A stretch of 63,570 nt of DNA from a virus. The stretch spans positions 1 through 63,570 of IMG/VR virus record IMGVR_UViG_3300031997_000009; one strand, given 5' to 3'. This document shows, piece after piece, positions 2,003 through 63,570 of the stretch. A program made the position numbers and the translations under genes. Numbering within the stretch: position 1 is the first letter of the stretch; the number at the start of each line of letters is the position of its first letter. The notes below the pieces were generated by a model. It was not told the DNA's origin. It worked only from the letters and a program-made list of their open reading frames with translations, and did not search any database.

Positions 2003-3544
2003 ATGAGTGAAGACAAAGACACGGGATTGTATGCTGGCCTCATGCTGTCTGCTCCCGAAGTCAAGACGCCACCGAAACGCAAGGGCTCGAAGCGCGAGAA
2101 GGAACAGCTCGGCAGAATACTCAATGACATCGCCAAAAGGATGCCCGTCTCCCCGCCCACGGTGCAAATCTGCTACGATTGCAAAGAGTGGTTTCCCGTG
2201 AACGTCGGCACATGGGTGCAGGATGGCGACAGGTTTGTGTGTCACGACTGCCGCGACGAGCACTATTTCAAGTGTGCCAGATGCGGAGATTACGAATACG
2301 CCGATAACGCCTGCACCGGATCGGACGACTGCTCCTACTGCCAGCACTGCTTTGACGATAAGTTTATATGTTGCGAGAAGTGCGGCGAGACCATGAGCGT
2401 CGATAACTCCTGCACCGGCGCGGACGACTGCTCCTACTGTCAATCGTGCTTCGGCCTCGCGTTCGTCGCCTGCGCCCACTGTGCCAGAACGATGGAACGG
2501 GACGACAATGACGGCGTTGAGCTTGACGGCGACCTGTGGTGCCGGAGATGCGCCGAAAGATATCTTGCTTACTGCGTCCATTGCGAAGAATACCACCACA
2601 ACGATGACTCACGCAACCACCGGGATGGATGGCAGGGATGCGTGAGCTGCTACGACGAATACTGCAACGGTATCCCGGACGGAGCACCGAATGAAGGGAC
2701 ACAGATGATACACGACCACACCTATAAGCCGACGCCAATCTACTTCCGTACGGAGAAGGATGAGAAATTACGACCCGACCAGAGGGCCTACCTGGGCTTC
2801 GAGCTTGAGGTGGAGGCGGTTACGGCCGACCACGCCAAGGGCGCAAAGGACGTGACTGAGATGTCCGCCATTAACGGAAACCAGCTCTTCTACTGCAAGT
2901 GGGACGGCTCGCTCAGTAACGGCTTCGAGGTTGTCAGTCACCCGATGACCCGCGACTTCATCTTCAACGAGAGGAAGGGCGCGAAGAAGATGATTGCCGA
3001 GGCCATCACAATGCTCCGGCGTTCAGGGTTCCGGTCGTACAACACGACGACCTGCGGCCTGCACTTTCACCTGTCAAGAAAGCACTTCGAGGGCACGTTC
3101 CACCTGTTCAAATTCCTGCGCTTCTGGTACGCCATGGACAAGGCCTTCGTGGTCTCGGTCTCTGGACGCAGTGATGAGAGGTCGATGCAGCAGTATTGCT
3201 CGCTGACGGACAACGAACATTCAAGCGCAAAGGAAGCCTGCATCTACAAGTCGAAGGAAAAGTACGGACGTAACAGGTATCAGGCTGTCAACCTGTGTAA
3301 TCGCCACACCATCGAGGTCCGCATCTTCAAGGGCACGCTGAACGTGGACAGCTTCTTCCGCAAGGCCGAACTCATGTTCGCCGCCATCGAGTTCACAAGG
3401 CAGGCGCCCCACACCTACGTCCTCGACGACTTCTTCCGGTGGGTCAACGAGCATTACAAGGAATACCCGTACAGTTTCGGGTGGTTGACATCTAAACGCC
3501 TTATAGTCGCAGTCAAACAAGAGGAGGAGATAGCGTGTGCATAA
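2003..3544 (+). CDS. Zinc-ribbon / amidoligase fusion, 513 aa
   Basis: Residues about 55-220 are dense in CxxC pairs; two nearly identical repeats share the pattern C-x2-CG-x4-DN-x-CTG-x-DDCSYCQ-x-CF (around 91-118 and 124-150). Residues about 263-445 match the amidoligase family (PF12224-like): GFELEVEAV near 265, TTTCGLHFHLS near 348-358 and HTIEVRIFKGTL near 435. Family members are glutamine-synthetase-fold COOH-NH2 ligases that form amide bonds on peptides or small acids using ATP. It overlaps by 10 bp a class II glutamine amidotransferase gene, so the two probably act together, with the amidotransferase supplying ammonia. The substrate is unknown; the cysteine array may bind it. Confidence 0.8.
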   Translation: MSEDKDTGLYAGLMLSAPEVKTPPKRKGSKREKEQLGRILNDIAKRMPVSPPTVQICYDCKEWFPVNVGTWVQDGDRFVCHDCRDEHYFKCARCGDYEYADNACTGSDDCSYCQHCFDDKFICCEKCGETMSVDNSCTGADDCSYCQSCFGLAFVACAHCARTMERDDNDGVELDGDLWCRRCAERYLAYCVHCEEYHHNDDSRNHRDGWQGCVSCYDEYCNGIPDGAPNEGTQMIHDHTYKPTPIYFRTEKDEKLRPDQRAYLGFELEVEAVTADHAKGAKDVTEMSAINGNQLFYCKWDGSLSNGFEVVSHPMTRDFIFNERKGAKKMIAEAITMLRRSGFRSYNTTTCGLHFHLSRKHFEGTFHLFKFLRFWYAMDKAFVVSVSGRSDERSMQQYCSLTDNEHSSAKEACIYKSKEKYGRNRYQAVNLCNRHTIEVRIFKGTLNVDSFFRKAELMFAAIEFTRQAPHTYVLDDFFRWVNEHYKEYPYSFGWLTSKRLIVAVKQEEEIACA

Positions 3545-14006: not shown

Positions 14007-14688
14007 GTCGTTTCCATTTGTGAGAGTTAATGAGCTTGAACAGGGGGTTGGGATTGCGGACGGTTTCATCCCATATCGTTTCGCCCGTCGGATTCAGGTA
14101 CTTGAGATCGCCCTTCTCATGGGCTATCACAATCCTCGGCACGGCCCTGTTTTCACAGAGGATGGAAAACTCGGCATCGTCGAGGTTGTCGTTCCGGAAG
14201 TCGGCGGCGTCAATCTGCAGCGTCTGACTATGATAGGCCATGGCGCCGGTGCCGATGATGTCCACTTCGACGTCTTCCAAGACCGTGCCAAGGCACGGGT
14301 AGTTCTTGTCTACTCGGCCGGGGCCGGTTCCGAACATGGATGTCAGGGGAGGGTTTATGGTCTTGCCGTGCCAGCCCACCACCGCCTTCCTCTTCTTCTC
14401 TTCTATCTTGTCGCACAGCCCGTCAACATAGTAGGGGGGATAGGCAAGGTCGTCGTCGCAGAAAAACAGGTATCCATCCAAGCCCTTGGCGAGAGCGAAC
14501 CTGCTCGCGCTCCCGCGGTTTACGTCCTTTGAGAATACGAAACTGCGATGAGAAGGCAGACTGCTTAGATCGCATCCGAAGCCGAACACGTACAAGACGT
14601 CTACCTGGGGCAAGATGCTTTCAATGGCCGCGCCCACGCAGTCGTAACGCGATGGCATCGTAGGCATGAACGCGTAAATTCTTTCCAT
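13999..14688 (-). CDS. Glycosyltransferase-like protein, 229 aa
   Basis: The product begins MERIYAFMPTMPSRYDC and carries FFCDDDLAYPP around residue 95, a DXD-type metal/nucleotide-sugar motif of GT-A enzymes (GT2-like). The ATG at 14688 shares its A with the preceding TGA. It would transfer a sugar to DNA, virion protein or host surface; the acceptor is unknown. It follows three related genes and is more distant from them than they are from one another. Confidence 0.65.
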   Translation of the reverse strand: MERIYAFMPTMPSRYDCVGAAIESILPQVDVLYVFGFGCDLSSLPSHRSFVFSKDVNRGSASRFALAKGLDGYLFFCDDDLAYPPYYVDGLCDKIEEKKRKAVVGWHGKTINPPLTSMFGTGPGRVDKNYPCLGTVLEDVEVDIIGTGAMAYHSQTLQIDAADFRNDNLDDAEFSILCENRAVPRIVIAHEKGDLKYLNPTGETIWDETVRNPNPLFKLINSHKWKRHG

Positions 14689-16037: not shown

Positions 16038-16736
16038 CTACCCCCTGTATCGGAATGCGAGAGCTTTCTCGCCCCTGGTAAAATAATACGATTCCTTCTG
16101 TCTTCGCCTCTCCTCGCTCCTGAGCGTGGTGTCGTGTATGAATGTCACAATCTTGCCGTTGACGTCGTAAAGGAATGGATAGACAATACCTCGGGGAGCG
16201 TGCTCGAAATGCGATAATCCACTCATAATGTCGTTGGGATTGTGGGTGTCCGTGCGATAGAGCCGGTAGTGAACGTACAGATACCGGAGATCGTCGTATT
16301 TCTTGTGCATACGGATGAAGTGGAGGTCGCGGATCAGGCCATGTCTCCTTACGCGCTTTTCGTTAAGGACGTACCAATCGGCATCATAATCGGTTCTTAA
16401 TGTGTGCTCCCGCAAAAACTCGTCCGCGTCCAAGACCAGGAAGTATTTACCGTTTTCTATTGGTTTAACGTATTCATTACGCTTTTGTGCTTGGTCGGGC
16501 CAGCCGTGCTCTGGGCATGGAATATAGAGGTCGGCCTCGGCCTTGGCTACGTCGATACAGCCGTCGGTGGAATAGGGTGTGTCGGTGCCGGCGACCTTCA
16601 TAAACTCCTGGAACGCGCCATCGACTGCGATAACGCGTAGACCGCTGTTGTGGCAGGCCTGGATGGCCTCAGAAAGCATCTTCGGCCCGTCGTTGTAGAA
16701 GATCATGCCCACAGTCACAAGCGCGTTTGTTTCCAC
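16038..16736 (-). CDS. Glycosyltransferase-like paralogue 3, 232 aa
   Basis: IFYNDGPKMLS, VIAVDGAF and FLVLDADEFL match the two downstream paralogues, as does the KKYDDL...YVHYRLYR segment. A GTG at 16736 has GGGAG 8 nt upstream; a second GTG at 16718 overlaps the previous stop and aligns better with the paralogues' N-termini. Divergence among the three suggests different acceptors or donors. Confidence 0.7.
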   Translation of the reverse strand: METNALVTVGMIFYNDGPKMLSEAIQACHNSGLRVIAVDGAFQEFMKVAGTDTPYSTDGCIDVAKAEADLYIPCPEHGWPDQAQKRNEYVKPIENGKYFLVLDADEFLREHTLRTDYDADWYVLNEKRVRRHGLIRDLHFIRMHKKYDDLRYLYVHYRLYRTDTHNPNDIMSGLSHFEHAPRGIVYPFLYDVNGKIVTFIHDTTLRSEERRRQKESYYFTRGEKALAFRYRG

Positions 16737-22153: not shown

Positions 22154-22215
22154 CCCGAACGCTTGCGTGCGTTCCGTCTTCCGCGAAACGGATGGCGCAA
22201 TGCACGCCGTTAAAT
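22154..22215 (-). repeat. Degenerate attC-like site 8 (array end)
   Basis: On the minus strand ATTTAAC (an RYYYAAC match) is followed by a hairpin with GCGTGC/GCACGC and CCGT/ACGG stems and ends at GTTCGGG. The ATTTAAC box is not complementary to the bases that open its module (TTGTCC), unlike the better sites, so this may be a decayed site or an unrelated hairpin. Confidence 0.35.
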
Positions 22216-22428
22216 TTTATCATAGCTACAGTTAGGACACATTTCCTGCAACACAATAGGCACAACCATCTTGTCACAGTTGGGACACTTTTTTAATGGC
22301 TTGCTTGCGCTGTTGTCCGATGGGGGCGCGGGCCGATATGATGGGCAATTAGGAGGGCAAAGCCCGTTTTCCATAATCGTATGGTTATGATATTCTACAT
22401 CAAAAACACTGGAAGCATATTCTGTCAT
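22210..22428 (-). CDS. Cassette 8: zinc-ribbon protein, 72 aa
   Basis: The frame is open from 22452, but the upstream part runs through the recombination box; the ATG at 22428 has AAGGAG upstream. CPPNC in the N-terminal half and KKCPNCDK...MCPNC near the end form a classic two-knuckle zinc ribbon. It probably contacts nucleic acid or protein; function unknown. Module start box GTTGTCC. Confidence 0.65.
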   Translation of the reverse strand: MTEYASSVFDVEYHNHTIMENGLCPPNCPSYRPAPPSDNSASKPLKKCPNCDKMVVPIVLQEMCPNCSYDKI

Positions 22429-22446
22429 TTTCTTCGCGCTCCTTTC

Positions 22447-22586
22447 GGACAACGGTCAAGGCACCGGCCCGACCGACTATTATTTTATATTGTCGGGGCG
22501 GATGGGGCGAAGTGCGCCAACTCCCACTGCTCTTTACATTCGGGACATAAGTATGTGGGCGCATTTTGCCCTGCTTGTTGTTGTAC
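22447..22586 (-). repeat. attC-like recombination site 7
   Basis: Read on the minus strand it opens with GTACAAC and closes with GTTGTCC (140 bp). Its stem GGGCAAAATGCGCC / GGCGCACTTCGCCC is the same design as in sites 1 and 2. GTACAAC is the reverse complement of the GTTGTAC that opens its own module at 22861. An extra hairpin (CCGAC/GTCGG) sits on the closing side. Confidence 0.7.
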
Positions 22587-22805
22587 GCTGGATTTTGCGA
22601 TGCCTTGCGCCGCCTCTTTGTGTTCCGGTATTTCGGGGTGACGGATAAGCATATCAGATTGTAGTGCAGCATTCCAAGCGCATTCCGCTAAATCCTCTTT
22701 GGATATTTCAGTGAGCCTATTTTTGTTTTGAAAAGTAGCCACCCACCAATCCGAAAACGACAATCCTTTGCGAAACAGAAGATCGTTTATGTCTCTTTGG
22801 TCCAT
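22485..22805 (-). CDS. Cassette 7: hypothetical protein, 106 aa
   Basis: The ATG at 22805 follows CAAGGAGAAAAG. The N-terminal helical region (FSDWWVATFQNKN, ECAWNAALQSD) precedes a C-terminal CPECKEQWE half-ribbon. The last third of the gene is encoded inside site 7, as happens when a long recombination site overlaps the reading frame. No family recognised. Confidence 0.6.
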   Translation of the reverse strand: MDQRDINDLLFRKGLSFSDWWVATFQNKNRLTEISKEDLAECAWNAALQSDMLIRHPEIPEHKEAAQGIAKSSVQQQAGQNAPTYLCPECKEQWELAHFAPSAPTI

Positions 22806-22854
22806 CTTTTCTCCTTGCCTTGCGGCGCTGATTTATTTCCTCGCAAAATCTTGC

Positions 22855-22928
22855 GTACAACGGTTGCGAATGGCCGCAGTAAACATCAAGCCTCCGCCTC
22901 GTTTATTGCGGCCTTCGCGTTGTTGCAT
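22855..22928 (-). repeat. attC-like recombination site 6
   Basis: 74 bp on the minus strand, from ATGCAAC to GTTGTAC. The arms GCGAAGGCCGCA and TGCGGCCATTCGC form a near-perfect stem with one extrahelical base, as in known attC sites. ATGCAAC is the reverse complement of GTTGCAT, which opens its own module at 23348. Confidence 0.75.
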
Positions 22929-23290
22929 GGGGCATCTTCGCCCGTACCGTTTGCCCGCTCCCCGCCCACGGATGGGCGGTCTTCGATGTGTTCACGCACT
23001 CCGTCTTTATCGGGCGGACCCCATGTTCTTTTTTCGTTGCCCGCCATTTTCTTTTCCGCTTCCAAGATAAGCGAGAAATTGTTTTTGTGGGCGAGGTGGT
23101 AAAGCAAAAGCAAGCAGTCCGCAGACTCTTCGGCAATGTCCGCGTGTTCGTTGGACTCAATAGCGGAATCGAGTTCCGCGACTTCCTTTTTAAGATGTGC
23201 TACGATTGATTTGCTCGTAGCCCCAGGAAAGGTAGAGTAGGCCCACATTCCAACATAAACCTGAAGCGTATTTACCGTTATGTCTTTCAT
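22886..23290 (-). CDS. Cassette 6: MazG-like nucleotide pyrophosphohydrolase, 134 aa
   Basis: HLKKEVAEL followed by EESADCLLLL gives the EExxE...ExxD-type metal site of all-alpha NTP pyrophosphatases (DUF550/MazG-like). Such phage enzymes hydrolyse dNTPs or alarmones, cleaning the nucleotide pool or altering host signalling. The ATG at 23290 follows AAGAAAGGAAAGA; the same frame is open to 23434 but that part is the previous recombination site. The C-terminus also reads into site 6. Confidence 0.75.
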   Translation of the reverse strand: MKDITVNTLQVYVGMWAYSTFPGATSKSIVAHLKKEVAELDSAIESNEHADIAEESADCLLLLYHLAHKNNFSLILEAEKKMAGNEKRTWGPPDKDGVREHIEDRPSVGGERANGTGEDAPCNNAKAAINEAEA

Positions 23291-23341
23291 TCTTTCCTTT
23301 CTTGCGGCCCCGGATGGGCCGCTGTCTTGCGGGCAAATGGT

Positions 23342-23434
23342 ATGCAACGCCCGTTGCTTGCCGAAGTTTGCGTACTCGCAAATTTGGGAGAGCGCCGGAA
23401 ACCCCGGCGCGAACCGGCAAGCAATTTGTTGCAT
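23342..23434 (-). repeat. attC-like recombination site 5
   Basis: 93 bp on the minus strand, from ATGCAAC to GTTGCAT, so both boxes are exact reverse complements. Inner arms TTGCTTGCCG and CGGCAAGCAA pair perfectly, with a further GCGCCGGGG/CCGGCGC stem inside. The opening box matches the start of its own module at 23848. Confidence 0.78.
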
Positions 23435-23458
23435 GAAGTAAAACCCCGCCGTTTTTCA

Positions 23459-23623
23459 TTATTCTGATGCCTCGATAATGTCCGCTGCCGCCCGTAATGC
23501 TTTTGATTTCAATCTTAGGTAGCTCACATACGCACCAAGGCATGACCCTGCCGCACCGATAATCAGGGCGCACATCAGCAGCACGATGGAAAGATTTGGT
23601 ACCGTGATTGATATCGTTGACAT
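23459..23623 (-). CDS. Cassette 5b: single-pass membrane protein, 54 aa
   Basis: The ATG at 23623 directly follows the stop of the upstream gene. Residues about 10-35 are hydrophobic (LSIVLLMCALIIGAAGSCLG), with a basic helical tail. It is in the same module as the 52-aa protein. A small membrane protein of unknown role; a lysis or exclusion function is only a guess. Confidence 0.6.
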   Translation of the reverse strand: MSTISITVPNLSIVLLMCALIIGAAGSCLGAYVSYLRLKSKALRAAADIIEASE

Positions 23624-23782
23624 TTAGTCCGCCTCCCTTTTAATTTTGTCGAGTTGCTGCGCCGTGTATGGCTTGTTCTCTTCCGTGATAACGCCGCCCA
23701 GCGTGGCAACATCCTTGATAACGGCAACCGGAAGCATGGCCGTGTTGACCGCAGTTCTGATTAAGGCTCCGAATAATCCCAT
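23624..23782 (-). CDS. Cassette 5a: small phage protein, 52 aa
   Basis: The ATG at 23782 follows CAAGAAAGGAAAAAC. The helical product begins MGLFGALIRTAVNTAMLPVA and ends with a charged segment (AQQLDKIKREAD). Similar short proteins occur in phages without known function. It shares one recombination module with the membrane protein that follows. Confidence 0.65.
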   Translation of the reverse strand: MGLFGALIRTAVNTAMLPVAVIKDVATLGGVITEENKPYTAQQLDKIKREAD

Positions 23783-23841
23783 GTTTTTCCTTTCTTGCGG
23801 CCTTGGCCGCTCCCGCTTCGCCTTCGGCGGGGTTTTATTTT

Positions 23842-23925
23842 ATGCAACGGGAAGCTATGCCGAAGCCGCGTCAGCGGTTTGCGGTGCGGGACTTGTTCCC
23901 GCGCCCGGCATAGCGTTTGTTGCCT
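23842..23925 (-). repeat. attC-like recombination site 4
   Basis: 84 bp on the minus strand, from AGGCAAC to GTTGCAT. Inner arms GCTATGCCG and CGGCATAGC are perfect inverted repeats, with a second stem CGCGGGAA / TTCCCG-like inside. GGCAAC is the reverse complement of GTTGCC, which opens its own module at 24490. The site overlaps the 3' end of the methyltransferase gene. Confidence 0.72.
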
Positions 23926-24427
23926 GCTGTGTTTCGGCGCGGTCTTCTGTCTTTATGAATGCGACCCAATGAGTCTTTTGCTGCTTTCCGCTTTTGTGCC
24001 CGAAAAGCGGCCGGTAGGGCGTGAGCGCCAGAATACGCGAAACCGGAATTTCATCGGCACACCACTTGAAAACAAGGACGCCATTATCTTTAAGAACGCG
24101 GAACGCTTCGGCAAACCCAGCGCGGAGCATCTCGCTCCAGTCTCCTTTAAGAGTACCGTACTTTAACCCCACCCATCCGGTAGCACCATTGCGCTCAAAA
24201 TGTGGCGGGTCGAAAACGACCAAGGAGAAGGAGCCGCTTTCAAAAGGCAGGGCCGTAAAGTCGCATTGATAATCGGGGTCGATGACAAGCTCACGGCTCC
24301 CTCCAGTGCTGGAAATGTCAGGAAGTGTGCGCCGCTCTTTGCGCTGGTCCACAAAAACGGCCCGCTGGTCATTCTTGTCAAACCAGAACATCTTGCTTCC
24401 GCAGCACATATCCAGGACTGGCTTCAT
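23855..24427 (-). CDS. Cassette 4: class I SAM-dependent methyltransferase, 190 aa
   Basis: VLDMCCGSKMFWFD near the start is a SAM-binding motif typical of a phage methyltransferase group, and FDPPHFERN is a DPPY-like catalytic motif of amino-group DNA methylases. It probably methylates a base in DNA; specificity unknown. The ATG at 24427 follows TGGAGAAAAAGA; longer frames upstream run through the cassette boundary. The Ala/Pro-rich C-terminal tail is encoded by site 4. Confidence 0.75.
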   Translation of the reverse strand: MKPVLDMCCGSKMFWFDKNDQRAVFVDQRKERRTLPDISSTGGSRELVIDPDYQCDFTALPFESGSFSLVVFDPPHFERNGATGWVGLKYGTLKGDWSEMLRAGFAEAFRVLKDNGVLVFKWCADEIPVSRILALTPYRPLFGHKSGKQQKTHWVAFIKTEDRAETQQATNAMPGAGTSPAPQTADAASA

Positions 24428-24483
24428 TCTTTTTCTCCAGCGGGCTTGCCCCGCGTTAATTGTCTTCCGCGCCGAAACATTGC

Positions 24484-24490
24484 CGGCAAC
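24484..24490 (-). other. Cassette boundary with degenerate attC (site 3)
   Basis: GTTGCCG on the minus strand opens the methyltransferase module, as shown by the complementary AGGCAAC at its far end. The hairpin expected just upstream (end of module 3) is not recognisable, and no GTACAAC is seen, so the site has been lost, truncated or replaced. Confidence 0.45.
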
Positions 24491-24500
24491 GTCCGACCCA

Positions 24501-24842
24501 TTAAGCAGTTGGTTGTTTCTGCTCATCACATTTAATCAACCGATTGAGGCGGTCGATTCCGGCATTCAAAAAGCCACGCGCCTTTTCAATATTTCCACTA
24601 TTCAAACAAGCACCAGCCATGTCAAATTGAACCTTGGCGTCTTCGACCGCCGCCTTAATGGGGCTTGTTGTGCGAAGTGACGCGCCTGCCTTTAATTCTT
24701 CAAGTTCGCTAAATGTTTTTGCCAAATCGTTCAGGACTGTGTAAACATCGGGGGGATACATTGTGTCCTTACCAAACGGCAGATAATGATAACGAGCCTG
24801 GAAGCGTTTAGCAAACAGCTCAAAACTTTCATTTGCATTCAT
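24501..24842 (-). CDS. Cassette 3: hypothetical protein, 113 aa
   Basis: The ATG at 24842 follows CAAGGAGAAAAAGCA. The product has helical repeats and is acidic in the middle (VLNDLAKTFSELEELKAG). No family recognised. Module start box GTTGTAC; the far-end site is degenerate. Confidence 0.6.
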   Translation of the reverse strand: MNANESFELFAKRFQARYHYLPFGKDTMYPPDVYTVLNDLAKTFSELEELKAGASLRTTSPIKAAVEDAKVQFDMAGACLNSGNIEKARGFLNAGIDRLNRLIKCDEQKQPTA

Positions 24843-24874
24843 TGCTTTTTCTCCTTGTCTTGGCGCGGCATTTT

Positions 24875-25000
24875 GTACAACGGATTGCCCCACTTTGGGA
24901 CGCATCCACAAATATTATTTTTCGTCCCGAAGAATGGGCGAAGCGTTCCGCTTCTTCAAATCAATTTTTGCGGAACGTTTTGCCCTGGGGCTTGTTAGGT
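24875..25000 (-). repeat. attC-like recombination site 2
   Basis: 126 bp on the minus strand, from ACCTAAC to GTTGTAC. The stem GGGCAAAACGTTCCGC / GCGGAACGCTTCGCCC has the same AAAA/CTTC bulge as sites 1 and 7; outer AGCCCC/GGGGC arms also pair. ACCTAAC is the exact reverse complement of GTTAGGT at the start of its own module (25400). A further hairpin (GGGACG/CGTCCC) is nested near the closing box. Confidence 0.78.
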
Positions 25001-25355
25001 GCTGTTTTACAAATTCGTTTAACAGGTAATACGCCTTGTCCACGCAACAGCACATCCCCTCTTTTTCATCAATATCTTTTTCGAGCAGGTCTTCAAAAAG
25101 CGGGAAGCCTTTTAGAACGCGAAATAACTCATTGTCAACTTGCTTGCCAGTCTTTGTTTCGATAACGTGGCAGGCGTCTAAAACAATCGACATTATTTGA
25201 TGTTCGACATCACGTAGCAGCCCAGTAAAGCTGACGCCATCAGTTTTGCGAAACATATTCTGGTAGCTCTCGCTTTTTTCGCGTTCTATTCTTCCCGCCT
25301 CAAATAGACCTGTGAGAACTTCTTTGATTGCTGTTGCAGTCACTTTCTCTACCAT
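24915..25355 (-). CDS. Cassette 2: hypothetical protein, 146 aa
   Basis: The ATG at 25355 follows AAAGGACGGTAGAATT. The helical product has a CCC cluster near residue 102 and a basic C-terminal tail; the tail (about 28 residues) is encoded within site 2. No family recognised. By eye the region is less GC-rich than flanking phage genes. Confidence 0.6.
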   Translation of the reverse strand: MVEKVTATAIKEVLTGLFEAGRIEREKSESYQNMFRKTDGVSFTGLLRDVEHQIMSIVLDACHVIETKTGKQVDNELFRVLKGFPLFEDLLEKDIDEKEGMCCCVDKAYYLLNEFVKQHLTSPRAKRSAKIDLKKRNASPILRDEK

Positions 25356-25393
25356 AATTCTACCGTCCTTTCAGACAACACTTGTAAAATTGC

Positions 25394-25471
25394 ACCTAAC
25401 GCTATGCCGAAGGGCGAAGCGGATTATTCAAAATACATCCTTTAATCCGTTTTGCCCTGGCGCTGTTGTAC
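25394..25471 (-). repeat. attC-like recombination site 1
   Basis: 78 bp on the minus strand, from GTACAAC to GTTAGGT; the closing box is a perfect GTTRRRY core. Arms GGGCAAAACGGATTA and TAATCCGCTTCGCCC pair with an AAAA/CTTC internal bulge. GTACAAC is the reverse complement of GTTGTAC at the start of its own module (25794). Confidence 0.8.
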
Positions 25472-25643
25472 GCAAAACCGGCGATGATTTTGATTGCGCC
25501 GATTCAATTAGCCCCTCTGTTTCAATTCTGTCTCTTAAATAACAGAACTCTCTATTTGTCATATCCAAAACCACTCTGACCATATTAGTATGTTCGCTTA
25601 CCCCACCTTTCGTTCTAAACCTATCATGCTTTACTATTTTCAT
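25428..25643 (-). CDS. Cassette 1b: hypothetical protein, 71 aa
   Basis: The ATG at 25643 overlaps the stop of the 33-aa gene (ATGA); an ATG at 25649 is also possible. It is a basic alpha/beta protein whose C-terminal part (TTAPGQNGLKDVF) is encoded by site 1. No family recognised. Confidence 0.55.
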   Translation of the reverse strand: MKIVKHDRFRTKGGVSEHTNMVRVVLDMTNREFCYLRDRIETEGLIESAQSKSSPVLRTTAPGQNGLKDVF

Positions 25644-25741
25644 TTCCATTTCCCACAACAAAGACAGCGCATTCTTTCAACCGGGAATGTAAATCGTGGC
25701 CACGAATGACCAAATATTTTACAGAATAATCTTTTAATCAT
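25640..25741 (-). CDS. Cassette 1a: small zinc-binding-like protein, 33 aa
   Basis: The ATG at 25741 follows ATAAGAAAGGAAAGAC, the leader type shared by several modules. FCKIFGHSWPRF then CLCCGKW resembles very short phage proteins of the DUF1660 type (hydrophobic CxxxGH plus CxxCG). Function unknown. Confidence 0.55.
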   Translation of the reverse strand: MIKRLFCKIFGHSWPRFTFPVERMRCLCCGKWK

Positions 25742-25787
25742 GTCTTTCCTTTCTTATCGGCGCTCTTGGCTATTTCGCCGGTTTTGC

Positions 25788-25794
25788 GTACAAC
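25788..25794 (-). other. First cassette boundary (attI-like or secondary site)
   Basis: GTTGTAC on the minus strand opens the array 61 bases after the nuclease stop codon. The preceding 60 bases show no attC-type hairpin, so the point could be an attI-like or secondary G^TT target used when the first cassette entered. No integrase gene accompanies it. Confidence 0.5.
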
Positions 25795-25854
25795 TACCAC
25801 TATGATGCAATAACATTCACCCTATGCTCTGATTTTGCACGTAAGACGAAGCTG

Positions 25855-29058: not shown

Positions 29059-32000
29059 TCACTGATTCCTTATGCTAAAAGGCTGTTCGCCTTCACCGGC
29101 CGGCGCGACCTCCGCCTGGGGCGCTTTCTTTTTCGGTATAATTCCCGTGCCGAGCTTGTTCATCTGTGCCGCCCAGGTGTTGAGAAAATCCGTCTGCTGG
29201 GCAATAGTCTTCTGCTCGGTAGCGGTGTCGCCACGCTCGCGTGCGGCCTTGGCAATCTTATTGAGGTTAGACATGGCAGTATTGACGTACCGCGTGAGAT
29301 TGTAGGCCATAATCTCGTTCTGGTTCTGGTCCAGGAAGGCCTTTGCGGCCTCGGTGTCTGATGCCGCCAGATCCGTATATTGCTCCCAATATGCCTGTAG
29401 CTCATCTTTCTTGCGGTAAAACATACCCTTGCTGGCGTTAGGAAGCGGAGCGCCTTTGATTCTGCGCCAGAAGGGGATCTCTCTGGTCGCAGGCAGCTCC
29501 GCGCCCGGGACTCCACGAGCATATTGCGCGGTCTTCCATCCCGAACTCACGCCCTTCATCAGAAAATCTCCAAGGCCACCGACCTGTTGTTTGATGAAGT
29601 AGTCAAACAGCTCGGGCGTAATGTCCACCATTCCAGGCCTGTACTTGCTCCCGCCCGTTATCTGGTTCAGCCTCTCCGCAACCGCTTTTGACTGCGCGCT
29701 CACGCCCTTGAAATACATCTGGCTCTCAGGTTTCCACTTCTCATACATCGCTCGTTCCGGGTACATGGGATTGCCGGCGAAATCGGTATTCAGGCGGTAG
29801 TCTTCGTACCAGCGAATAGCGGTTGGAAACATAGTCTGAGCGACATTACCGGAACCGAGCGGATTGAACGATCCCACGATATTAGAAAGAATGTTGGCGG
29901 TAGCCTGTTCGGGCTTCGTCACGCCCCTGGTCATGGACTCAAAAAGCACGCCCGTGGCATAGAATACGCCGAAGTTGAACGGAAGCGGAATCTTATAATA
30001 GGTTCCGTCGGCCTTGGGGATAATCCAGTTCCGGGTGCGGGTAAAGAGCGGTATCTTCTCGTAGTTCTCGTCACCCATCATCATCCGGCCCCACTCCGCG
30101 AAACCCACGCCCATCGTGCCCAGGCCCACGGTAAAGGCTACGCCCTTCGGCGTTTTGAGGATTTGTAGTGCGCGGCGGTTTCCCTGCATGGCCGCATTCG
30201 CGAACATATACAGAGCGTTGAATGTCGCGCCCCATTCGCCCTTGCGGTTGAAGTTGACGGTGAGATTCTTCGCGACCTGGGCCGCGCGTTCGGGTGAGTA
30301 CCCGTGCTCGCGCATGACCTTGAAACAGGACAAGCGCGTTCCGTTTTCGACCGCGGAGTTCATAACGTCTACAAAGTCTTTGACGCCGAAGACAAACTTC
30401 TTGAGGTTGTTCATGGCGCTCTTATCCATGGAGTTGATTTCGCTTACAAAGCGCTTCTGCACAGACTCGAGATCGTTGAAGTTCACGAACTCGACCGTGC
30501 CCCCGTGCTCGCTGAATTCGCGTGCCCACTTCTGCGCATCCGTGATTCCGGACTCCCCTATCATCTTCAGGATCCACTTTCCCGCCACATCCTTTTCCTT
30601 GAACAGATGTCCGTACATACCCTTCATCATCCTCGGCACGCCAAAGGCTATCTGCGCCGCCATCGCCGCGCTGTGCTCGGACGTGATGTTAATCATAGCC
30701 TCCTGTAAGTCACGCTGGAAGTTGGAGATGATGAATTCGGGACTCCATCGCGTGATCATGCCCGCGAGGAAGCGGTTGTACGCACCCGCGGTCCTGACGA
30801 TTTTAGCGAAAGTGCTGTCGTTCATGGTGCCCATGTTCTTCATCGCGTTCGCCAGCGCGTCGTCGTTTATGCGGATAATATTGTCTTCGCCGTTGACCTT
30901 AACAACCACGACATTGGAGGCGCGCTTCCAGTTCGGGGTGACAATTTCCCAGACCTTGTTGTTGGGGCTTTCCATCACCAGGCCCAGAAAGGCGCGCCCG
31001 ACCTCATTCCTGTGCGCAGTAATGATGTCTTTCTGAATCTGGGTGAGAATGTTGGCGATTATGTTATCGGCATTGGCCATGGTCTCGCGCCCCATCGCCG
31101 TCTTAGGCTTGTAGCTGACGCTAAACCCCTTGGCTCCGCCGATAGGGCGGAACTCGGCTTCGAGATCCTTAATCTGCTCTGCCGTAAGCCCCTTCATTCC
31201 CAGCATCTGCGCGTCCTCGGACTCCTGGAAGCCCTTGAGCGGGACGTAGTTTTTCCATGCCCGGTTCCAGCCTTTGATTGTTTCCGCGCTCACGAGGCCA
31301 TACTTTTGCAGGACGTATTCGTGGTAAGTGTTGATGTTCTTGACCATCTTCTCGATTTTGTACAGCTGCGCGAGCTTCTCCGGATGTACGCTCATTTGTT
31401 TGATTATGGCGTCGGCAATAACATCGAACATACCCGAGGAGGGGTTAAGCTGCTCAATGCCATTGAAGAGAACTTTCTGCGCGAACACAGGGTTAATCTT
31501 GGCGCCACTGGCGTTGCGCTCTTTTGCGTGTCGGGCATAGAGCCAAATCCCGATTTCGCGCACGTTCATGCCCGAATCGTGAATAGCTCTTTCGAGTGGT
31601 AACACGTAGTTGACGCGGAAGGAATCGAGCATGGCCTTGGTCTTGCCGTGCATTATCTCCTGTTTCAGATACGCGTCAAAGGCCTCAGGGATCTTCCGCA
31701 CCTGCTGAATCGCCTTCTGGACAAACCCAAGGCGAGCGAACTCGTCAACAGTCTTGCGCTTAAACCACTCGCGAATGCCCTCGCCCGCGACCGTGAAGGA
31801 CTCGTACGCGCCTTCAGGGCTCATGGGGTCGGCGGGAGGGGGCTTGGGAATTAGGGCGCCGCCGGCAGGAGGCGGGGCCTCCGCACCCTTGCGGCCGTAG
31901 ATATGCTCCTCGGCCCTGCGCACGCGCTCCTGTTCCGGGATCTCCTCGGCAGGCTTCGCCGCCTCATCAATCGGCATGGGCTTTTCTTTCGCGAACAACG

Positions 32001-35000
32001 GCTGTCCCTCATACAAGACCTTATCTCTCATCGCCGGCGTGATGTCGAAAGCGGGCTGGTTTTCATGAACGCCCTTGTCCGCAAAGTCACCCTCCTCGTG
32101 AGCCCTTCCTCGTGCCTCGTAGGGAATGTTTATTTTTCCTACTTTCCCACCGCCGAGCCTTCTTAATATGTCGTCGGCTACCTGGGGAAGCATCTCGTCA
32201 TAGAATCTTATGAACCCCTTGCCGCCTACGGTCAAGCCTTTTCCGGTGATCTCTCCCGACTCCTTTCCCATTATCTCAGCGGCGTTGGCTTTATTGGATA
32301 GGAGTTCGGACAGGGGCTTGCCGATCCATTCGTTATTGCCCGATGAACTGTCCAAAATTTTACCCTCACTATCTACATAAACCCTCACTTCACCTGATCG
32401 CTTGGTGTCGAGAATAACCTTTTTTACCGCGAGCAGTCTCGGATGTTCAATTCCTGGACCTGCTGCCAATGCGTTATCGTACTTCCCCCACCTTACTCCA
32501 TTAAGCACCGATCTCATGCTTTTCGACCATCTCGCCACTTGCTGTATGCCAGTCGTCCACGCAACCCTATCCATCCCCCGTTCCGCCGCATAGCGTATGG
32601 CGCGTTTCAAGGCGAGACCAACCCATGCCTTCGTATTCGTAACAAAGGGGCCGCGAGAAACGCCGGTACTTACCAATTCCCGAAAATGATCCGCGGCATC
32701 AGTTACATCGTTTTGTGCTTGATGATACTCGTTTCTTGCAAGAAATTCCTTTCTCGCATCAGATTTTTCGCCCCGCTTTAGGGCTTCCGAGATGGCGTCC
32801 AGCTCGCGGGCTGCAACAGCAAATCTTTCTTCCGCTCTTTTAAGCGTGGCCTGGGCGGTTTCGATGGCGATCCTGTCGTATTTTCCGCCTTCTTTCCTGT
32901 AGCTCTGTCCCCAATCGCTTTGGATTTCTTCAAGAAACAAAACCTTTTTGCCTTCGGCATCCACGCGCTCGTTGAAGCGTATCCACGCAAGCACATTCTT
33001 AATTTCAGGATAATGCGGGCCAGCGGCCAATTCCGGGCCCGGAAGCGAAATAGCCAGCTCGCCGTAATTTTCTCCGCCGGGAAGGCGCCATAATGGGCTC
33101 ATGTATTGGGGTACTGTTCCAGGGTAGTTTCGTTCTCGAATATAATTGTCAATGGTTTCTTGGGGAAGAATGTCAACCATCCTTCCGTTAAAATTCAGCC
33201 TGAGTTTTGTTGGCTCAAAATCAGACGGCCGTGTCTGCCATAAGTTACCCAGCGGGTCGGTAAAAGACCGTTCTCCATCGGCAGGCCCCTCCCATGGAAT
33301 ATCCATTTTTCTAACGGCGAGCATCGTGGTTTCTTCGGGCTTTGGAACGCCGGGCCCTATTTTGTCTTTGTCGTACTTCCCGTCCAGGTATTCGATTATG
33401 GTATTGCGCTCTACCGGCGCCTCGTCCACAAGCTCAAGAAATTCCTTGATCCCCGACCATTCGATCTCGTCTTGTTTGATGCCGAGCTTGCCCTTGTTAC
33501 TGTCGAGCCATTGGATCCATTGTTTGCCCTTGAGATTGTCGAATCTGGCGGGAGCATTCTCGAATGCGCGCTTGAGAACGGAGTAGAACGTGGGGGCGGT
33601 AGGACCCCCACCTTCGCGAGCGTACCGGGTCGTGGCTTTTTCACGCTCGTTCTTGTTCTTGAGCCGGCCCAGGACATCGCGAATTATGGCATCAATCTCC
33701 TCTGTCCGCGTGTACTCGGTGAGCCCAAAACGCTGCAGCAGGCGCTTAAAGAAGGCGCGGATCATTCCCTTGACCGTGACGTTGGCCTTGGTGTAGCTGC
33801 GGGCGTCGTAGCGTTCGATCTGCTTGGCTATCCACTCGTCCATGAGCACGTCGGGGGTGGCGTCACGGTAGGTATGGAATACCTGCACGCGCTCGATATA
33901 ATCCCGCAACTCCTTGCTCTTGAGCCAATTCTCTTTGTACTTTGATTTCAGTTCTTCCGTTATCCGGTTCAAGGGCGTGTCCTGAAAATACTTGCGGTCT
34001 TCCTCGAACAGGCGCTTGATGACGTCGTGGATCCTGGGGTCGGAACGGATTAAGGGAGAAGCGCCGAAGTGTCCTGCTATTTCATGGACGAGGATGCGCC
34101 GGAGCTCGGATGCGGGCAGGCGCGAACTGATGGTGACACGGGCTCGTCCGTCTGCGCCCATGAAGATTTCGGCCTGGGCGTCAGGTGGAAGACGGCCCTC
34201 GGTATCGAGAACGATATCGAGATTTTCCGGCTTATAGTGCCCGAAGTAGTCTTCGAGAACGGTCGCTGTTACCTTGGATACTATTTCTGGCGCTCGCCCC
34301 ACGGCCGTAGAAGGACGGGGGCGGGGCGCGCCCACTACCAGACGGTTGCGCCTGGACAGACGCCATTGTCCAACATCAGTATTGGGCAAGACCTTCTTCA
34401 GGTCCGCCATCAGCGAGTTCCAATCGTCGGCGCTGACCTCTTCCATGTCGCCGTCGGGGTTGTCCCTCTTCATCTCCGCGCGCCGGCGGGCCGCCTCCTC
34501 GTTTTTGTTCGTAATCTCGCGCCGGGCATCGTCCTCACTCTCCCATTCCAGGTCCTGCTGCTCGTCCCGGAGGCGCTTTACTTCTTTCCTTATCGCGGCT
34601 TCGGTAATTTTCTCTTTTCTGGCCGTAAGCGTGGCACGGGCCCGGGCCTGGAGCTCGGAGTCGGTGACGACGATGTTGTCTGCCCTGATTTTTTCCACTT
34701 CCCTGGCAATGTCGGCCTCGCTGATGCTTTTCTTCTTCGACACCCCGCCCCTGGCCGCGACATCGCGACGCCGAGCCTGAATTTGGTTGCGGGCCATCTG
34801 CTTGAGCTCGTTTTCGTCGGCGACGAAGACCCGGCGCTTGACCTTTTCCGCGGTCATGTAGCCGCCTTCGCCCTCGACGGCTATGCCCACCTGTGTAAAC
34901 ACCTTCTTCTGCGCAAGATAGTCTCGGACTTCGTAAGACTGTCCGGACTTGGTGTAACCGTCGTCGTGAAGCTGCTGCCTGATCCCGTCTACCTTCTGTT

Positions 35001-37368
35001 TGACGCCAAAATCGTCGATTTTTGAATCAAAACCGGCATCCTCGTACTTCTTTATCACCGCCGCCAGCTGCTGTGGCTCCCACATCTCGCGGTTGGCCTC
35101 GGCCTTGTCGATTTCGCGCACGAGCGCGTTCATGGCCTGAGCCTCTTCTGGCGTTTTCAGCGTAAAAACAGCCATTCTCTCTTCTGCCGTCCTCGGTTTG
35201 TATCCAAGTGCAACAGCATCTCGGTAATTCTGCTTTTCGGCCTCGTCTTTCAGGACTTCCCGTTCCTTCTGCGCCTCAGTTTTCTGTTTTTTCTTCTTAA
35301 TTTCGACCTTTTCCTTCTTAACCGCGGGCCGGCTCTCATCGGGTATGGTCGGGGCCATGGCCGCGACAGCTTTGATGGCCTCTGGCGACATCGGATCCGA
35401 GTTCACGAGCTCCTCGACTTCGTCGGGCGTGAGCTCTTCGGGCTTTTTCGCTACCCGCTTCGGAGGGACTGCGGCTTCCCCTTCCTTGGGGGTTACGGCA
35501 GGCGCAGGCGGGGGCGCAGGGGGTGGAACGGGGGGTGTGGCGGGTCTTTCCTCGGCTTTTGGGGCCTCGGCGATTTTAGGGGCCTCTGGAGCGGCCGGGG
35601 CTGCAGGGGCAGGCGGAGGCGGTACGGCAGTTTTTGCCTCTTCAGCGGCCTTGGCCTTGGCGGCTTCGGCTTTGGCATCGGCATCGCGCCGGCGATTCTT
35701 AACCTCCTCCACGACCACGCCCTTGTCGCCCTCGTGCAAATCCTCAAAAACGTACTTGGAGGGGTCGCGTTCGACCGCGTCCACGTACTCGCTCGCGGTA
35801 AGTTTAAGATCTTTGAGCGAATGCCGTTCCCGTGGTTTCGGCAGCAGGCCCGCGACTTCGGCAGCCTTTCTCACTCCCCTGCTCACTAAGCCTTCGGGTA
35901 CGCCCCTTATCGCTCCCGGGACCATGCCCATGGCAAAACCCGCGAGAGTGGCGTCGATTCCGTTTCTGACCATCTGGTTCCAGGTCAGGCCCGGGTTCAC
36001 GCCCGTGACCTTGTCGATGAGGTTCTGGCCCATGGTCATGCCGAGCATGGTCGCGGCCGCATTCCTGCCCTCTCCGAGCGCGTGCTTGGACATATTCACA
36101 AGCACGCCCGATACCATCTTCTCCGCAGCCTCTTTCCCGACGGCGGCGCTTGTGGCCTTGAACGCGAGAGCGAGGCGGTTGAATATCCCACCCATTCCAA
36201 CGGTCATAAAGACTGTCTCGACGGCGCCCTTTCCGAATGCCGCGAAATCGGCAATGGTCTCGTCCGGCAGTTTCTCGCCTCCGATAACGCGCTTGAGATA
36301 TTCTTCCTGGCTCTCACCCATCCTCGATACGCCAAGAACCGCGCCCGGAACCAGCATTGGTATCTTCAGGGCCGCGGATGCGGCAAAGCCCACCAGAAGA
36401 GGTATGGATTGCAAGGTCTCGAGTGTGAGAAGTTTTCCGGCTTCCGCTATCTCTCCTTTTTGAATCAGGCTCGATGCGGTCTCGTTGCCGAAGCGCTGCT
36501 CGATAATGTTGTTTTTGGCCTCGACATCGCTCAAGAACTTGTAAACAGGGTTCTCGTCCGCTGTCGGAGGCGTGATCTTTGTTGGAAGATCCGTGCCGAA
36601 ACTGTCATTTATGCCGGCGTTTACGGAGCTAACAGTGATCCACAGGGCCTTGTTGAGCTCGTGTCCGACCATGGCTCCGGATTTAAGCCACGACGCCGTG
36701 CCAGCAGTAAGCACGCCTTTAACGCTCTTCCATGTCCCCGGGGCTTCCACCGGAGTTTCTTTCTCGGGTTCGGCGGCAGGCTTCGTTTCAAGCGCGGCAG
36801 GCTCGGGCTTTTCTTCAATGGGCGCGCCCTCGAAGTCGAGCTTCATGGGTTCGGGCCTGTATTCGGCCACAACCTCCTGCAACGGTCGCCCCGTAGCCAG
36901 GTATGCCGCACGCTTCGCCCTATCGGTTCGGAGGAGTTCGGGTTCGGCGGGAGGTATGGGGGTTTTAACGCCCAGGCCTGGAGCCGAGGGCGCGATTGAG
37001 GTGGGTGGAGCCTCGTGGACTTTAAAACCTCTTACGTCAACGAGTTCGCGCTTTGGAGGCAGAGGCGGAGCCTCGGCAATCCTTTTCTCCCAATCGGGAG
37101 TGATGTCGATCTTGGGGGCAGCCGCGAGTTCTTCCTGGCGCTTGACCTCCGCCTCCCGTTGCTGCAGTTCCGCGACCGGAAGGCCGAGTATGCCGGCCTC
37201 GAGTTCGGGCGTGTAGGTGGGCGGCGGGGCTTGGAAAGCGGCAGCAAGCTGTTCGAGCGTGGCCCCGTCTCTGATGGCGGCGTCGGTGTCGAAATAAGTG
37301 CCAAGAAAATCTTTTATCTGGCTGTCGCTGGCACCATCTCTCCTCGCCGATTCTATATCAAAAGGCAT
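29059..37368 (-). CDS. Giant polyvalent internal virion protein, 2769 aa
   Basis: The N-terminus (FDIESARRDGASDSQIKDFL) is typical of polyvalent phage proteins. Hydrophobic, amphipathic helices lie around 320-500, Pro/Ala linkers around 580-680 and charged coiled coils around 690-1010. VHEIAGHF near residue 1094 is a zincin-type metallopeptidase motif. WSGIKEFLE (about 1305) and EEIQSDWGQ (about 1482) belong to blocks seen in other large polyvalent proteins. The last third, with NFQRDLQEAMIN (about 2210) and TRTRNWIIPKADGTYYKIPL (about 2440), resembles the C-terminal polyvalent-associated domain LPD38. Such proteins are packaged and ejected with DNA and act early in the host. One gene is 13 percent of the genome. 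Confidence 0.75.
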   Translation of the reverse strand: MPFDIESARRDGASDSQIKDFLGTYFDTDAAIRDGATLEQLAAAFQAPPPTYTPELEAGILGLPVAELQQREAEVKRQEELAAAPKIDITPDWEKRIAEAPPLPPKRELVDVRGFKVHEAPPTSIAPSAPGLGVKTPIPPAEPELLRTDRAKRAAYLATGRPLQEVVAEYRPEPMKLDFEGAPIEEKPEPAALETKPAAEPEKETPVEAPGTWKSVKGVLTAGTASWLKSGAMVGHELNKALWITVSSVNAGINDSFGTDLPTKITPPTADENPVYKFLSDVEAKNNIIEQRFGNETASSLIQKGEIAEAGKLLTLETLQSIPLLVGFAASAALKIPMLVPGAVLGVSRMGESQEEYLKRVIGGEKLPDETIADFAAFGKGAVETVFMTVGMGGIFNRLALAFKATSAAVGKEAAEKMVSGVLVNMSKHALGEGRNAAATMLGMTMGQNLIDKVTGVNPGLTWNQMVRNGIDATLAGFAMGMVPGAIRGVPEGLVSRGVRKAAEVAGLLPKPRERHSLKDLKLTASEYVDAVERDPSKYVFEDLHEGDKGVVVEEVKNRRRDADAKAEAAKAKAAEEAKTAVPPPPAPAAPAAPEAPKIAEAPKAEERPATPPVPPPAPPPAPAVTPKEGEAAVPPKRVAKKPEELTPDEVEELVNSDPMSPEAIKAVAAMAPTIPDESRPAVKKEKVEIKKKKQKTEAQKEREVLKDEAEKQNYRDAVALGYKPRTAEERMAVFTLKTPEEAQAMNALVREIDKAEANREMWEPQQLAAVIKKYEDAGFDSKIDDFGVKQKVDGIRQQLHDDGYTKSGQSYEVRDYLAQKKVFTQVGIAVEGEGGYMTAEKVKRRVFVADENELKQMARNQIQARRRDVAARGGVSKKKSISEADIAREVEKIRADNIVVTDSELQARARATLTARKEKITEAAIRKEVKRLRDEQQDLEWESEDDARREITNKNEEAARRRAEMKRDNPDGDMEEVSADDWNSLMADLKKVLPNTDVGQWRLSRRNRLVVGAPRPRPSTAVGRAPEIVSKVTATVLEDYFGHYKPENLDIVLDTEGRLPPDAQAEIFMGADGRARVTISSRLPASELRRILVHEIAGHFGASPLIRSDPRIHDVIKRLFEEDRKYFQDTPLNRITEELKSKYKENWLKSKELRDYIERVQVFHTYRDATPDVLMDEWIAKQIERYDARSYTKANVTVKGMIRAFFKRLLQRFGLTEYTRTEEIDAIIRDVLGRLKNKNEREKATTRYAREGGGPTAPTFYSVLKRAFENAPARFDNLKGKQWIQWLDSNKGKLGIKQDEIEWSGIKEFLELVDEAPVERNTIIEYLDGKYDKDKIGPGVPKPEETTMLAVRKMDIPWEGPADGERSFTDPLGNLWQTRPSDFEPTKLRLNFNGRMVDILPQETIDNYIRERNYPGTVPQYMSPLWRLPGGENYGELAISLPGPELAAGPHYPEIKNVLAWIRFNERVDAEGKKVLFLEEIQSDWGQSYRKEGGKYDRIAIETAQATLKRAEERFAVAARELDAISEALKRGEKSDARKEFLARNEYHQAQNDVTDAADHFRELVSTGVSRGPFVTNTKAWVGLALKRAIRYAAERGMDRVAWTTGIQQVARWSKSMRSVLNGVRWGKYDNALAAGPGIEHPRLLAVKKVILDTKRSGEVRVYVDSEGKILDSSSGNNEWIGKPLSELLSNKANAAEIMGKESGEITGKGLTVGGKGFIRFYDEMLPQVADDILRRLGGGKVGKINIPYEARGRAHEEGDFADKGVHENQPAFDITPAMRDKVLYEGQPLFAKEKPMPIDEAAKPAEEIPEQERVRRAEEHIYGRKGAEAPPPAGGALIPKPPPADPMSPEGAYESFTVAGEGIREWFKRKTVDEFARLGFVQKAIQQVRKIPEAFDAYLKQEIMHGKTKAMLDSFRVNYVLPLERAIHDSGMNVREIGIWLYARHAKERNASGAKINPVFAQKVLFNGIEQLNPSSGMFDVIADAIIKQMSVHPEKLAQLYKIEKMVKNINTYHEYVLQKYGLVSAETIKGWNRAWKNYVPLKGFQESEDAQMLGMKGLTAEQIKDLEAEFRPIGGAKGFSVSYKPKTAMGRETMANADNIIANILTQIQKDIITAHRNEVGRAFLGLVMESPNNKVWEIVTPNWKRASNVVVVKVNGEDNIIRINDDALANAMKNMGTMNDSTFAKIVRTAGAYNRFLAGMITRWSPEFIISNFQRDLQEAMINITSEHSAAMAAQIAFGVPRMMKGMYGHLFKEKDVAGKWILKMIGESGITDAQKWAREFSEHGGTVEFVNFNDLESVQKRFVSEINSMDKSAMNNLKKFVFGVKDFVDVMNSAVENGTRLSCFKVMREHGYSPERAAQVAKNLTVNFNRKGEWGATFNALYMFANAAMQGNRRALQILKTPKGVAFTVGLGTMGVGFAEWGRMMMGDENYEKIPLFTRTRNWIIPKADGTYYKIPLPFNFGVFYATGVLFESMTRGVTKPEQATANILSNIVGSFNPLGSGNVAQTMFPTAIRWYEDYRLNTDFAGNPMYPERAMYEKWKPESQMYFKGVSAQSKAVAERLNQITGGSKYRPGMVDITPELFDYFIKQQVGGLGDFLMKGVSSGWKTAQYARGVPGAELPATREIPFWRRIKGAPLPNASKGMFYRKKDELQAYWEQYTDLAASDTEAAKAFLDQNQNEIMAYNLTRYVNTAMSNLNKIAKAARERGDTATEQKTIAQQTDFLNTWAAQMNKLGTGIIPKKKAPQAEVAPAGEGEQPFSIRNQ

Positions 37369-63224: not shown

Positions 63225-63389
63225 ATGGACGTACTTGATGCGTTCAGGGATTGCTCAAGGTGCGCCATGTGCGAATCGTGCGAAAAGCGCGCGATACTTG
63301 AATGGCCGGATGGACGCAAGGAATTTACCTTTGCGCTCTGCGGGGATTTTTCTCCGCTGCCTTCCGGTGACAGGTGGATAATCGCATAG
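63225..63389 (+). CDS. Small cysteine-rich protein, 54 aa
   Basis: The ATG at 63225 starts after a weak TTGGGG. The cysteine pattern C-x2-C-x2-C-x2-C near residues 10-19 (CSRCAMCESC) is a strong metal-binding signature, with a further C at about 39. The gene ends in the terminal repeat and is followed by the terminator. Unknown function. Confidence 0.55.
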   Translation: MDVLDAFRDCSRCAMCESCEKRAILEWPDGRKEFTFALCGDFSPLPSGDRWIIA

Positions 63390-63570
63390 GGCCACGTTGG
63401 CGCCATCATGGATAGGCCATACCGCCTTAATTGAGCGGCCGCTGGCCTATCTTTTTTTTTCACCCATTCACCACGGAGGCGGTATGGAGTCCATTTTCAG
63501 CTCAACGGTGGACGCACTGGAGCGTCTGCAGGAGGAGCGCGAGTGCGCTCTGCAGGACGGTGACGCCGAG
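63371..63570. repeat. Right copy of the terminal direct repeat
   Basis: It repeats bases 1-200 with one mismatch (63471). It includes the terminator copy at 63411-63460 and a truncated copy of the 41-aa gene starting at 63484. See the left copy for interpretation. Confidence 0.9.
63411..63460 (+). terminator. Rho-independent terminator (repeat copy)
   Basis: The same 9-bp stem plus T run as at 41-90, here 22 bases after the stop of the cysteine-rich gene it serves. Confidence 0.88.

Follow-up and report, generated by a model that had tools for sequence, protein, structure and literature searches.

The window analysed here, the whole 63,570-nt stretch of the IMG/VR virus record IMGVR_UViG_3300031997_000009, carries on its minus strand (25794–22189) eight modules arranged head to tail, with one or two small genes apiece. 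We interpret this locus, with high confidence, as eight mobile cassettes without a recombinase of their own, the phage equivalent of a CALIN (cluster of attC sites lacking integron-integrases) belonging to a non-canonical integron type of Patescibacteria and phages. Each module begins at a GTT abutting the hairpin of the preceding module and runs through its gene or genes to an AAC, followed by a 60–176-nt hairpin and then the G that opens the next GTT. The first-pass annotation of this DNA had proposed an integron-like array with attC sites; from that proposal the mobile cassettes, the exchange at G^TT, the 3' hairpin and the lack of an integrase stand, whereas the classification of the sites as ordinary attC does not.

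Comparison of phages revealed that the modules change as whole units. The sister phage contig L003 (IMGVR_UViG_3300031746_003729) is 99.86% identical to the window over 5,542 bp adjoining the array. Hairpin 1 is present in both as far as the GTT at 25400, exactly where identity breaks, and cassette 2 is replaced in L003 by a different cassette within the same limits (GTTGGGC/GCCCAAC, its own ends matching at 17 of 20 positions). Identity returns at the GTT of cassette 3, covers this cassette together with its hairpin and breaks at the next GTT; the position of cassette 4 is occupied in L003 by a different cassette with a GTTGGGC start. Cassette 3 is common to both phages (97.3% over 409 bp) between two unrelated cassettes. 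Furthermore, one cassette of G002 (IMGVR_UViG_3300031707_000086, a 35 kb phage contig) recurs in contig L153 (IMGVR_UViG_3300032070_000539) at 95.1% over 288 bp, hairpin included, with unrelated flanks and both limits at GTT. The change of whole modules at GTT points among related phages, a check proposed in the first-pass annotation, was observed in both comparisons.

In all five resolved junctions the breakpoint lies at GTT, with flanking homology of no more than a few bases. The two comparisons therefore define the moving unit as GTT to GTT, with the hairpin as the 3' end of the cassette. As judged from sequence, the modules are shown to move as cassettes, with the cut falling at G^TT or one or two bases away. 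The arm in which the unpaired base sits had hinted at a cut on the hairpin's AAC side, an idea that was rejected, hairpin 1 being identical in both phages and the next cassette different. Elsewhere, L003 contains ~63 extra bp (L003 6488–6550, corresponding to window 30936–30937) inside a 2,769-aa open reading frame (ORF; 29059–37368), a difference that involves no array junction.

The boxes and hairpins named in the first-pass annotation are all present on the minus strand. Its rule that a cassette opens with the reverse complement of its far-end box, claimed for six modules, was confirmed and holds for all eight, with two qualifications: the far box of module 3 carries one substitution (intact in L003), and module 6 contains a 15-nt insertion. 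Site 8, which had been considered doubtful, proved real, with ends matching at 16 of 20 positions and a hairpin. The within-module match extends over ~20 nt, beyond the 7-nt box (values per cassette are listed below). Six GTT../..AAC end pairs with at least 16 of 20 matches within 2.5 kb were found in the window, all at 22.5–25.8 kb, versus a mean of 0.3 in 50 shuffles; when the AA/TG feature described next was also required, the search returned six pairs on the minus strand, none on the plus strand and none in 100 shuffles.

Positions 10–11 of the ends read AA at the module start, where the reverse-complemented module end has TG (or AG). Across 35 phage modules, compiled without requiring this feature, mismatches numbered 26 at position 10, 34 at position 11 and at most 9 elsewhere, and AA stood against TG or AG in 32 of the 35. 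This pile-up indicates that the ends comprise two paired boxes (~9 + ~9 bp) with a constant 2-nt mismatch between them. All sites keep AAC and GTT, and most boxes follow NNNCAAC / GTTGNNN (e.g., GTTGTAC, GTTGCAT). On the coding strand, 22 of 37 phage sites carry the unpaired base in the 3' arm and 3 carry it in the 5' arm. Folding energies showed no consistent bias between the strands. The right-hand box is often crossed by a gene that continues into the hairpin. The features of the array are as follows:

25795..25815, minus strand: sequence ahead of cassette 1, ending ..GCATCATAGTGGTA directly before GTTG; a putative attI-like entry position, judged from position only.
25400..25794, minus strand: cassette 1; start GTTGTACGCAAAACCGGCGA (25794), R'' box GTACAAC ending at 25465, hairpin 25464–25401; inverted ends 20/20; two small ORFs, 25741–25640 and 25649–25428 (minus strand).
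24881..25400, minus strand: cassette 2; ends GTTAGGTGC / GCACCTAAC, hairpin 24993–24882; 146-aa ORF 25355–24915; ends 17/20.
24490..24881, minus strand: cassette 3; start GTTGTACAAAATG, R'' GCACAAC ending at 24667 (mutated; intact GTACAAC in L003), long hairpin 24666–24491; 113-aa ORF 24842–24501 (minus strand) reading through R''; ends 16/20 in the window, 18/20 in L003.
23848..24490, minus strand: cassette 4; GTTGCCGGCAATG / ..GGCAAC, hairpin 23918–23849; ends 17/20; 190-aa DNA methyltransferase, 24427–23855 (minus strand; PHROG 954 methyltransferase, 8e-68).
23348..23848, minus strand: cassette 5; GTTGCATAAAATAAAACCCCGCCG / reverse complement, hairpin 23427–23349; ends 18/20; two small ORFs of 52 and 54 aa (PHROG 33676 match).
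22861..23348, minus strand: cassette 6; GTTGCAT.. / ..ATGCAAC, hairpin 22921–22862; right repeat interrupted by the 15-nt insertion, itself a hairpin (read directly); 134-aa MazG-like ORF 23290–22886 (minus strand; Pfam matches MazG / dATP-dGTP pyrophosphohydrolase).
22453..22861, minus strand: cassette 7; GTTGTACGCAAGATTTTGCGA / reverse complement, hairpin 22579–22454; ends 18/20; 106-aa ORF 22805–22485 (minus strand) reading through R''.
22189..22453, minus strand: cassette 8; GTTGTCCGA.. / ..TCGGACAAC ending at 22312, hairpin to GTTTCGC at 22189, with a GCGCAA/TTGCGC stem and one unpaired A (read directly); ends 16/20; 72-aa ORF 22428–22210 (minus strand).

The cargo, with methyltransferases in cassette 4 and in three G002 cassettes and a MazG-like protein in cassette 6, consists of typical phage accessory genes. 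The three G002 cassettes (L036 8592–12100) carry DNA methyltransferases of three families, like the methyltransferase-bearing CALINs reported in other phages.

The same module arrays were identified in two further phages, G002 and G003 (IMGVR_UViG_3300017917_002466), the latter a 253.7 kb myophage with tail sheath, baseplate, ribonucleotide reductase and ligase genes; neither has a substantial DNA match to the window phage. The G+C content of the G003 arrays (45–47% versus 33.5% for the genome) suggests a foreign origin. Both arrays are directly preceded by one 44-bp leader (L043 11641–11684 and L044 17852–17895; 97.7% identical), ending ..ACATCATTTAACTA before GTTG, which is a candidate phage entry site and which the window leader weakly resembles. 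Two L044 cassettes (14075–14244 and 16054–16208) have near-identical ends and the same hairpin start but differ internally, as though their cargo had been swapped while the site stayed in place.

When 19 sites from G002, G003 and L153 were aligned, 10 of the 12 pairs of the inner stem showed compensatory changes, a result that is supportive only, the sites having been picked for having a stem. A covariance model built from these 19 sites, and containing no window sequence, recognised window site 6 at 35.1 bits (E = 6e-7, the best match) and site 2 at 24.2 bits, and gave matches of 27.1 and 24.8 bits in L003. The same model detected nothing in canonical integron loci, in phage TJE1 or in the examined part of phage H101. 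Two plain DNA patterns were also tried. AGGGCAAAAYG..CRCTTCGCCC marked real sites in the IMG/VR contigs L003, L004 and L005 and chance matches in L002 and L006, and its 27 matches in bacterial genomes were rejected, all being without the inner stem and consistent with chance; CGCACAACARCGC..RACGTTG gave seven matches, with modules in none.

Genome scans with the phage-site model were positive in 5 of 333 Patescibacteria and in none of 398 Pseudomonadota or 345 Bacteroidota, 13–15 candidates being scored per genome, which makes absence elsewhere weak evidence. In two of the five positive genomes, the site adjoins a tyrosine recombinase of ~270–285 aa transcribed away from it, and in a third another site lies beside its copy of the gene. 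This recombinase family (alignment A4) occurs in 41 of 317 Patescibacteria and, at 1e-85, in none of 296 Bacteroidota. The end-matching search upstream of 40 recombinase genes yielded 40 modules in the integron orientation and none in the opposite one, distributed over 16 loci; this is a minimum, many contigs being cut off after a few hundred bases. No modules were present at seven other tyrosine-recombinase loci of the same genomes. At a stricter setting (17/20), 12 canonical integron loci gave no modules versus 31 in the 267 kb upstream of these recombinases of Patescibacteria (candidate phyla radiation, CPR). The first GTT lies mostly 66–161 bp from the recombinase start, often after ..GCATAnAAACGA, in an attI-like position; in the phage itself no attI site was identified. 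The phage-trained model matches many of these neighbourhoods, with the strong matches in array orientation. The phylum of this genome set was assigned via sampling around the genome 'Patescibacteria group bacterium UBA5272', and binning errors are possible; as a general explanation they are unlikely, because 16 independent loci were found.

The CPR recombinases (265–290 aa) are without the ~31+7 residues (columns) of the IntI-specific insertion near patch III. The HSLRH motif is conserved in them, as is a ..SPL terminus like that of IntI. They score 175–224 bits against TIGR02249 (integron integrase) and NF040815 (XerA/integron integrase), almost all under the curated cut-offs, and lower against XerC/D. 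Among solved structures IntI4 (2a3v) is the closest, and the match to it splits into two stretches because the residues of the IntI insertion are missing. In the phylogenetic tree, with a midpoint root and moderate support at deep nodes, IntI formed one clade (99/100) near the CPR enzymes, with Xer outside. In one patescibacterial genome (G1030; L174 2036–2563), the gene after the recombinase resembles a REP-associated (Y1/HUH) transposase, as judged by eye from its sequence.

Collectively, comparison at the sequence level shows cassette units, GTT breakpoints, a hairpin that travels with its cassette, a site family that phages have in common with Patescibacteria, and association with a recombinase, arranged as in an integron. 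Each cassette is built as TT-box1-AA-box2, gene(s), box2'-TG-box1'-AAC-hairpin-G. In the mechanism we propose, the two cassette ends of the excised circle would pair into one long imperfect hairpin, this folded single strand being the presumed substrate. The enzyme that cuts G^TT and excises cassettes is most likely the IntI-related tyrosine recombinase, without the IntI-specific insertion, encoded beside the Patescibacteria arrays. Insertion would take place at another GTT point or cassette end, or at an attI-like site beside the recombinase gene. A phage without an enzyme of its own would use that of its host, and might thereby gain, lose or reorder small genes such as methyltransferases and MazG-like genes. 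The carrier phages are most likely phages of Patescibacteria, the host of the window phage being deduced from its sites.

Several observations weigh against this interpretation. Site type is the only link between the window phage and a patescibacterial host, and the phage and examined Patescibacteria arrays have no cassette in common at the DNA level. The phage-site model recognises only sites 6 and 2 of the window, the others being divergent, and its lack of matches outside Patescibacteria carries the weakness noted above. In the strict search, 24 of the 40 recombinase loci had no module, partly since contigs end within a few hundred bases. No recombinase was found in the phage contigs tested: in agreement with the first-pass annotation, which saw no integrase, neither the window nor G001–G003 contains a match to PF00589 or TIGR02249, and Pfam searches of 20 window proteins returned no recombinase.

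The best-surviving alternative, though an improbable one, is a canonical CALIN, in which the phage acquired ordinary attC cassettes that the host's IntI mobilises. Such an array would have the same G^TT cut logic, cassette-end hairpin and one-way arrangement; CALINs have been published from phages, and of six phage attC tested, five were recombined by IntI1 (PMC9892861). However, the attC covariance-model search suggested in the first-pass annotation did not bear out attC identity. A model from 46 attC sites of arrays beside intI in gammaproteobacterial genomes detected the published attC of phage TJE1 (34.3, 25.7 and 19.0 bits), but found no match in the window, L003, G002 or G003 (with filters off, no score above 4.7 bits in the window array); across 261 kb of CPR arrays it gave no canonical attC, even at E 10. 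End matching in 23 canonical cassettes covers the 7-nt R box (9–11 paired nt in the literature; PMC2727003), and the next 13 positions average ~4.6 matches versus 10–13 here. The unpaired base of canonical attC is located on the R''-L'' arm (PMC2727003), opposite to the arm that mostly carries it here, and the canonical R'' RYYYAAC / R' GTTRRRY is fitted only by GTTAGGT in the window and GTTGGGC in L003. The window sites are not attC in the ordinary sense; they have a consensus of their own, with 20-nt inverted ends, AA/TG, an unpaired base in the 3' arm and an R' that is mostly GTTGNNN.

If the units were transposon-like, bounded by terminal inverted repeats and mobilised in trans by a transposase, the ~20-nt inverted ends of each would be explained; we consider this very unlikely, given that the units lie head to tail sharing one GTT, that no target-site duplications were seen, that whole units are replaced at the same point, and that the Patescibacteria arrays adjoin a tyrosine recombinase in an integron layout. 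It is just as hard to credit that the hairpins are transcription terminators or RNA elements and the module differences ordinary phage mosaicism: phages are mosaic and the hairpins do come after genes, but genes cross R'' into the hairpin, the five junctions fall at GTT with hardly any flanking homology, and the ends within modules match at 16–20 of 20 positions.

The phage that carries the array encodes a terminase, a portal and a major head protein. Because of a 200-bp direct terminal repeat (1–200 = 63371–63570, 99.5%), its contig probably represents the whole phage genome, terminally redundant or circular. Immediately outside the array lies a gene for a Dam-type adenine methyltransferase (PF05869; 21133–21645), and the phage encodes an amidoligase-like protein (PF12224) at 2003–3544 on the plus strand. 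Rfam matches in the window were to tRNA only, and IMG/VR searches by terminase, Cas4-like gene and cassette-3 protein retrieved no relatives besides the sister contig.

Integrase-less attC clusters in phages, with sites usable by IntI1, were published in 2023 (PMC9892861), and the list of integron-bearing phyla in a 2021 review does not include Patescibacteria (PMC8618304). Our search of the full-text literature, with preprints and subscription papers outside its range, turned up no description of either this site type or Patescibacteria/CPR integrons. The site type is apparently undescribed, and its novelty is likely. Integrons are defined by an IntI with an extra domain together with attC, and surveys seek only those; viruses and Patescibacteria seem to have in common a gene-swapping system undetected by standard models. 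We think it likely that this is a second kind of integron, common to Patescibacteria and their phages, with an integrase of its own (an IntI relative that lacks the IntI-specific domain) and a distinct hairpin site. Such a system may retain, or run parallel to, an early stage in the evolution of integrons, and may serve as a pool of cassettes on which both ultra-small bacteria and their viruses draw. If true, a cassette system with another integrase and another site, missed by the attC model, would widen the known range of cassette exchange to a very large group of bacteria whose genomes are tiny, and to unrelated phages of 35–254 kb. It would also offer a testable comparison for the evolution of IntI from Xer-like enzymes and point to a possible route along which phages trade methyltransferases and other small genes, and its presence might serve to flag phages whose hosts are uncultured Patescibacteria.

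XerA recombinases carry out chromosome dimer resolution at dif. The Patescibacteria recombinases belong to the same length class and score 207–224 bits against the XerA-type family (NCBIfam NF040815, 'recomb_XerA_Arch'; cut-off 220), but they adjoin cassette arrays, have the ..SPL C-terminus of IntI and find their closest structure in IntI4. With integrons (IntI/attI/attC), CALINs and the phage CALINs of TJE1, P12002L and PH101 (PMC9892861), the present arrays share one-orientation cassettes, hairpin ends and G^TT exchange; phage-borne CALINs are likewise integrase-less arrays. In Patescibacteria, as in integrons, the array adjoins a tyrosine recombinase, here a divergent one, together with a putative attI-like entry point. 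The differences from integrons lie in the sites, which the attC model misses and which have ~20-nt paired ends, a fixed AA/TG and an unpaired base mostly in the 3' arm, and in the enzyme, IntI possessing the IntI-specific insertion that the Patescibacteria recombinase is without. Archaeal integrons similarly extend integrons beyond the usual bacteria, but they retain the IntI-specific domain and the canonical attC structure (PMC9668308), whereas the Patescibacteria type has neither.

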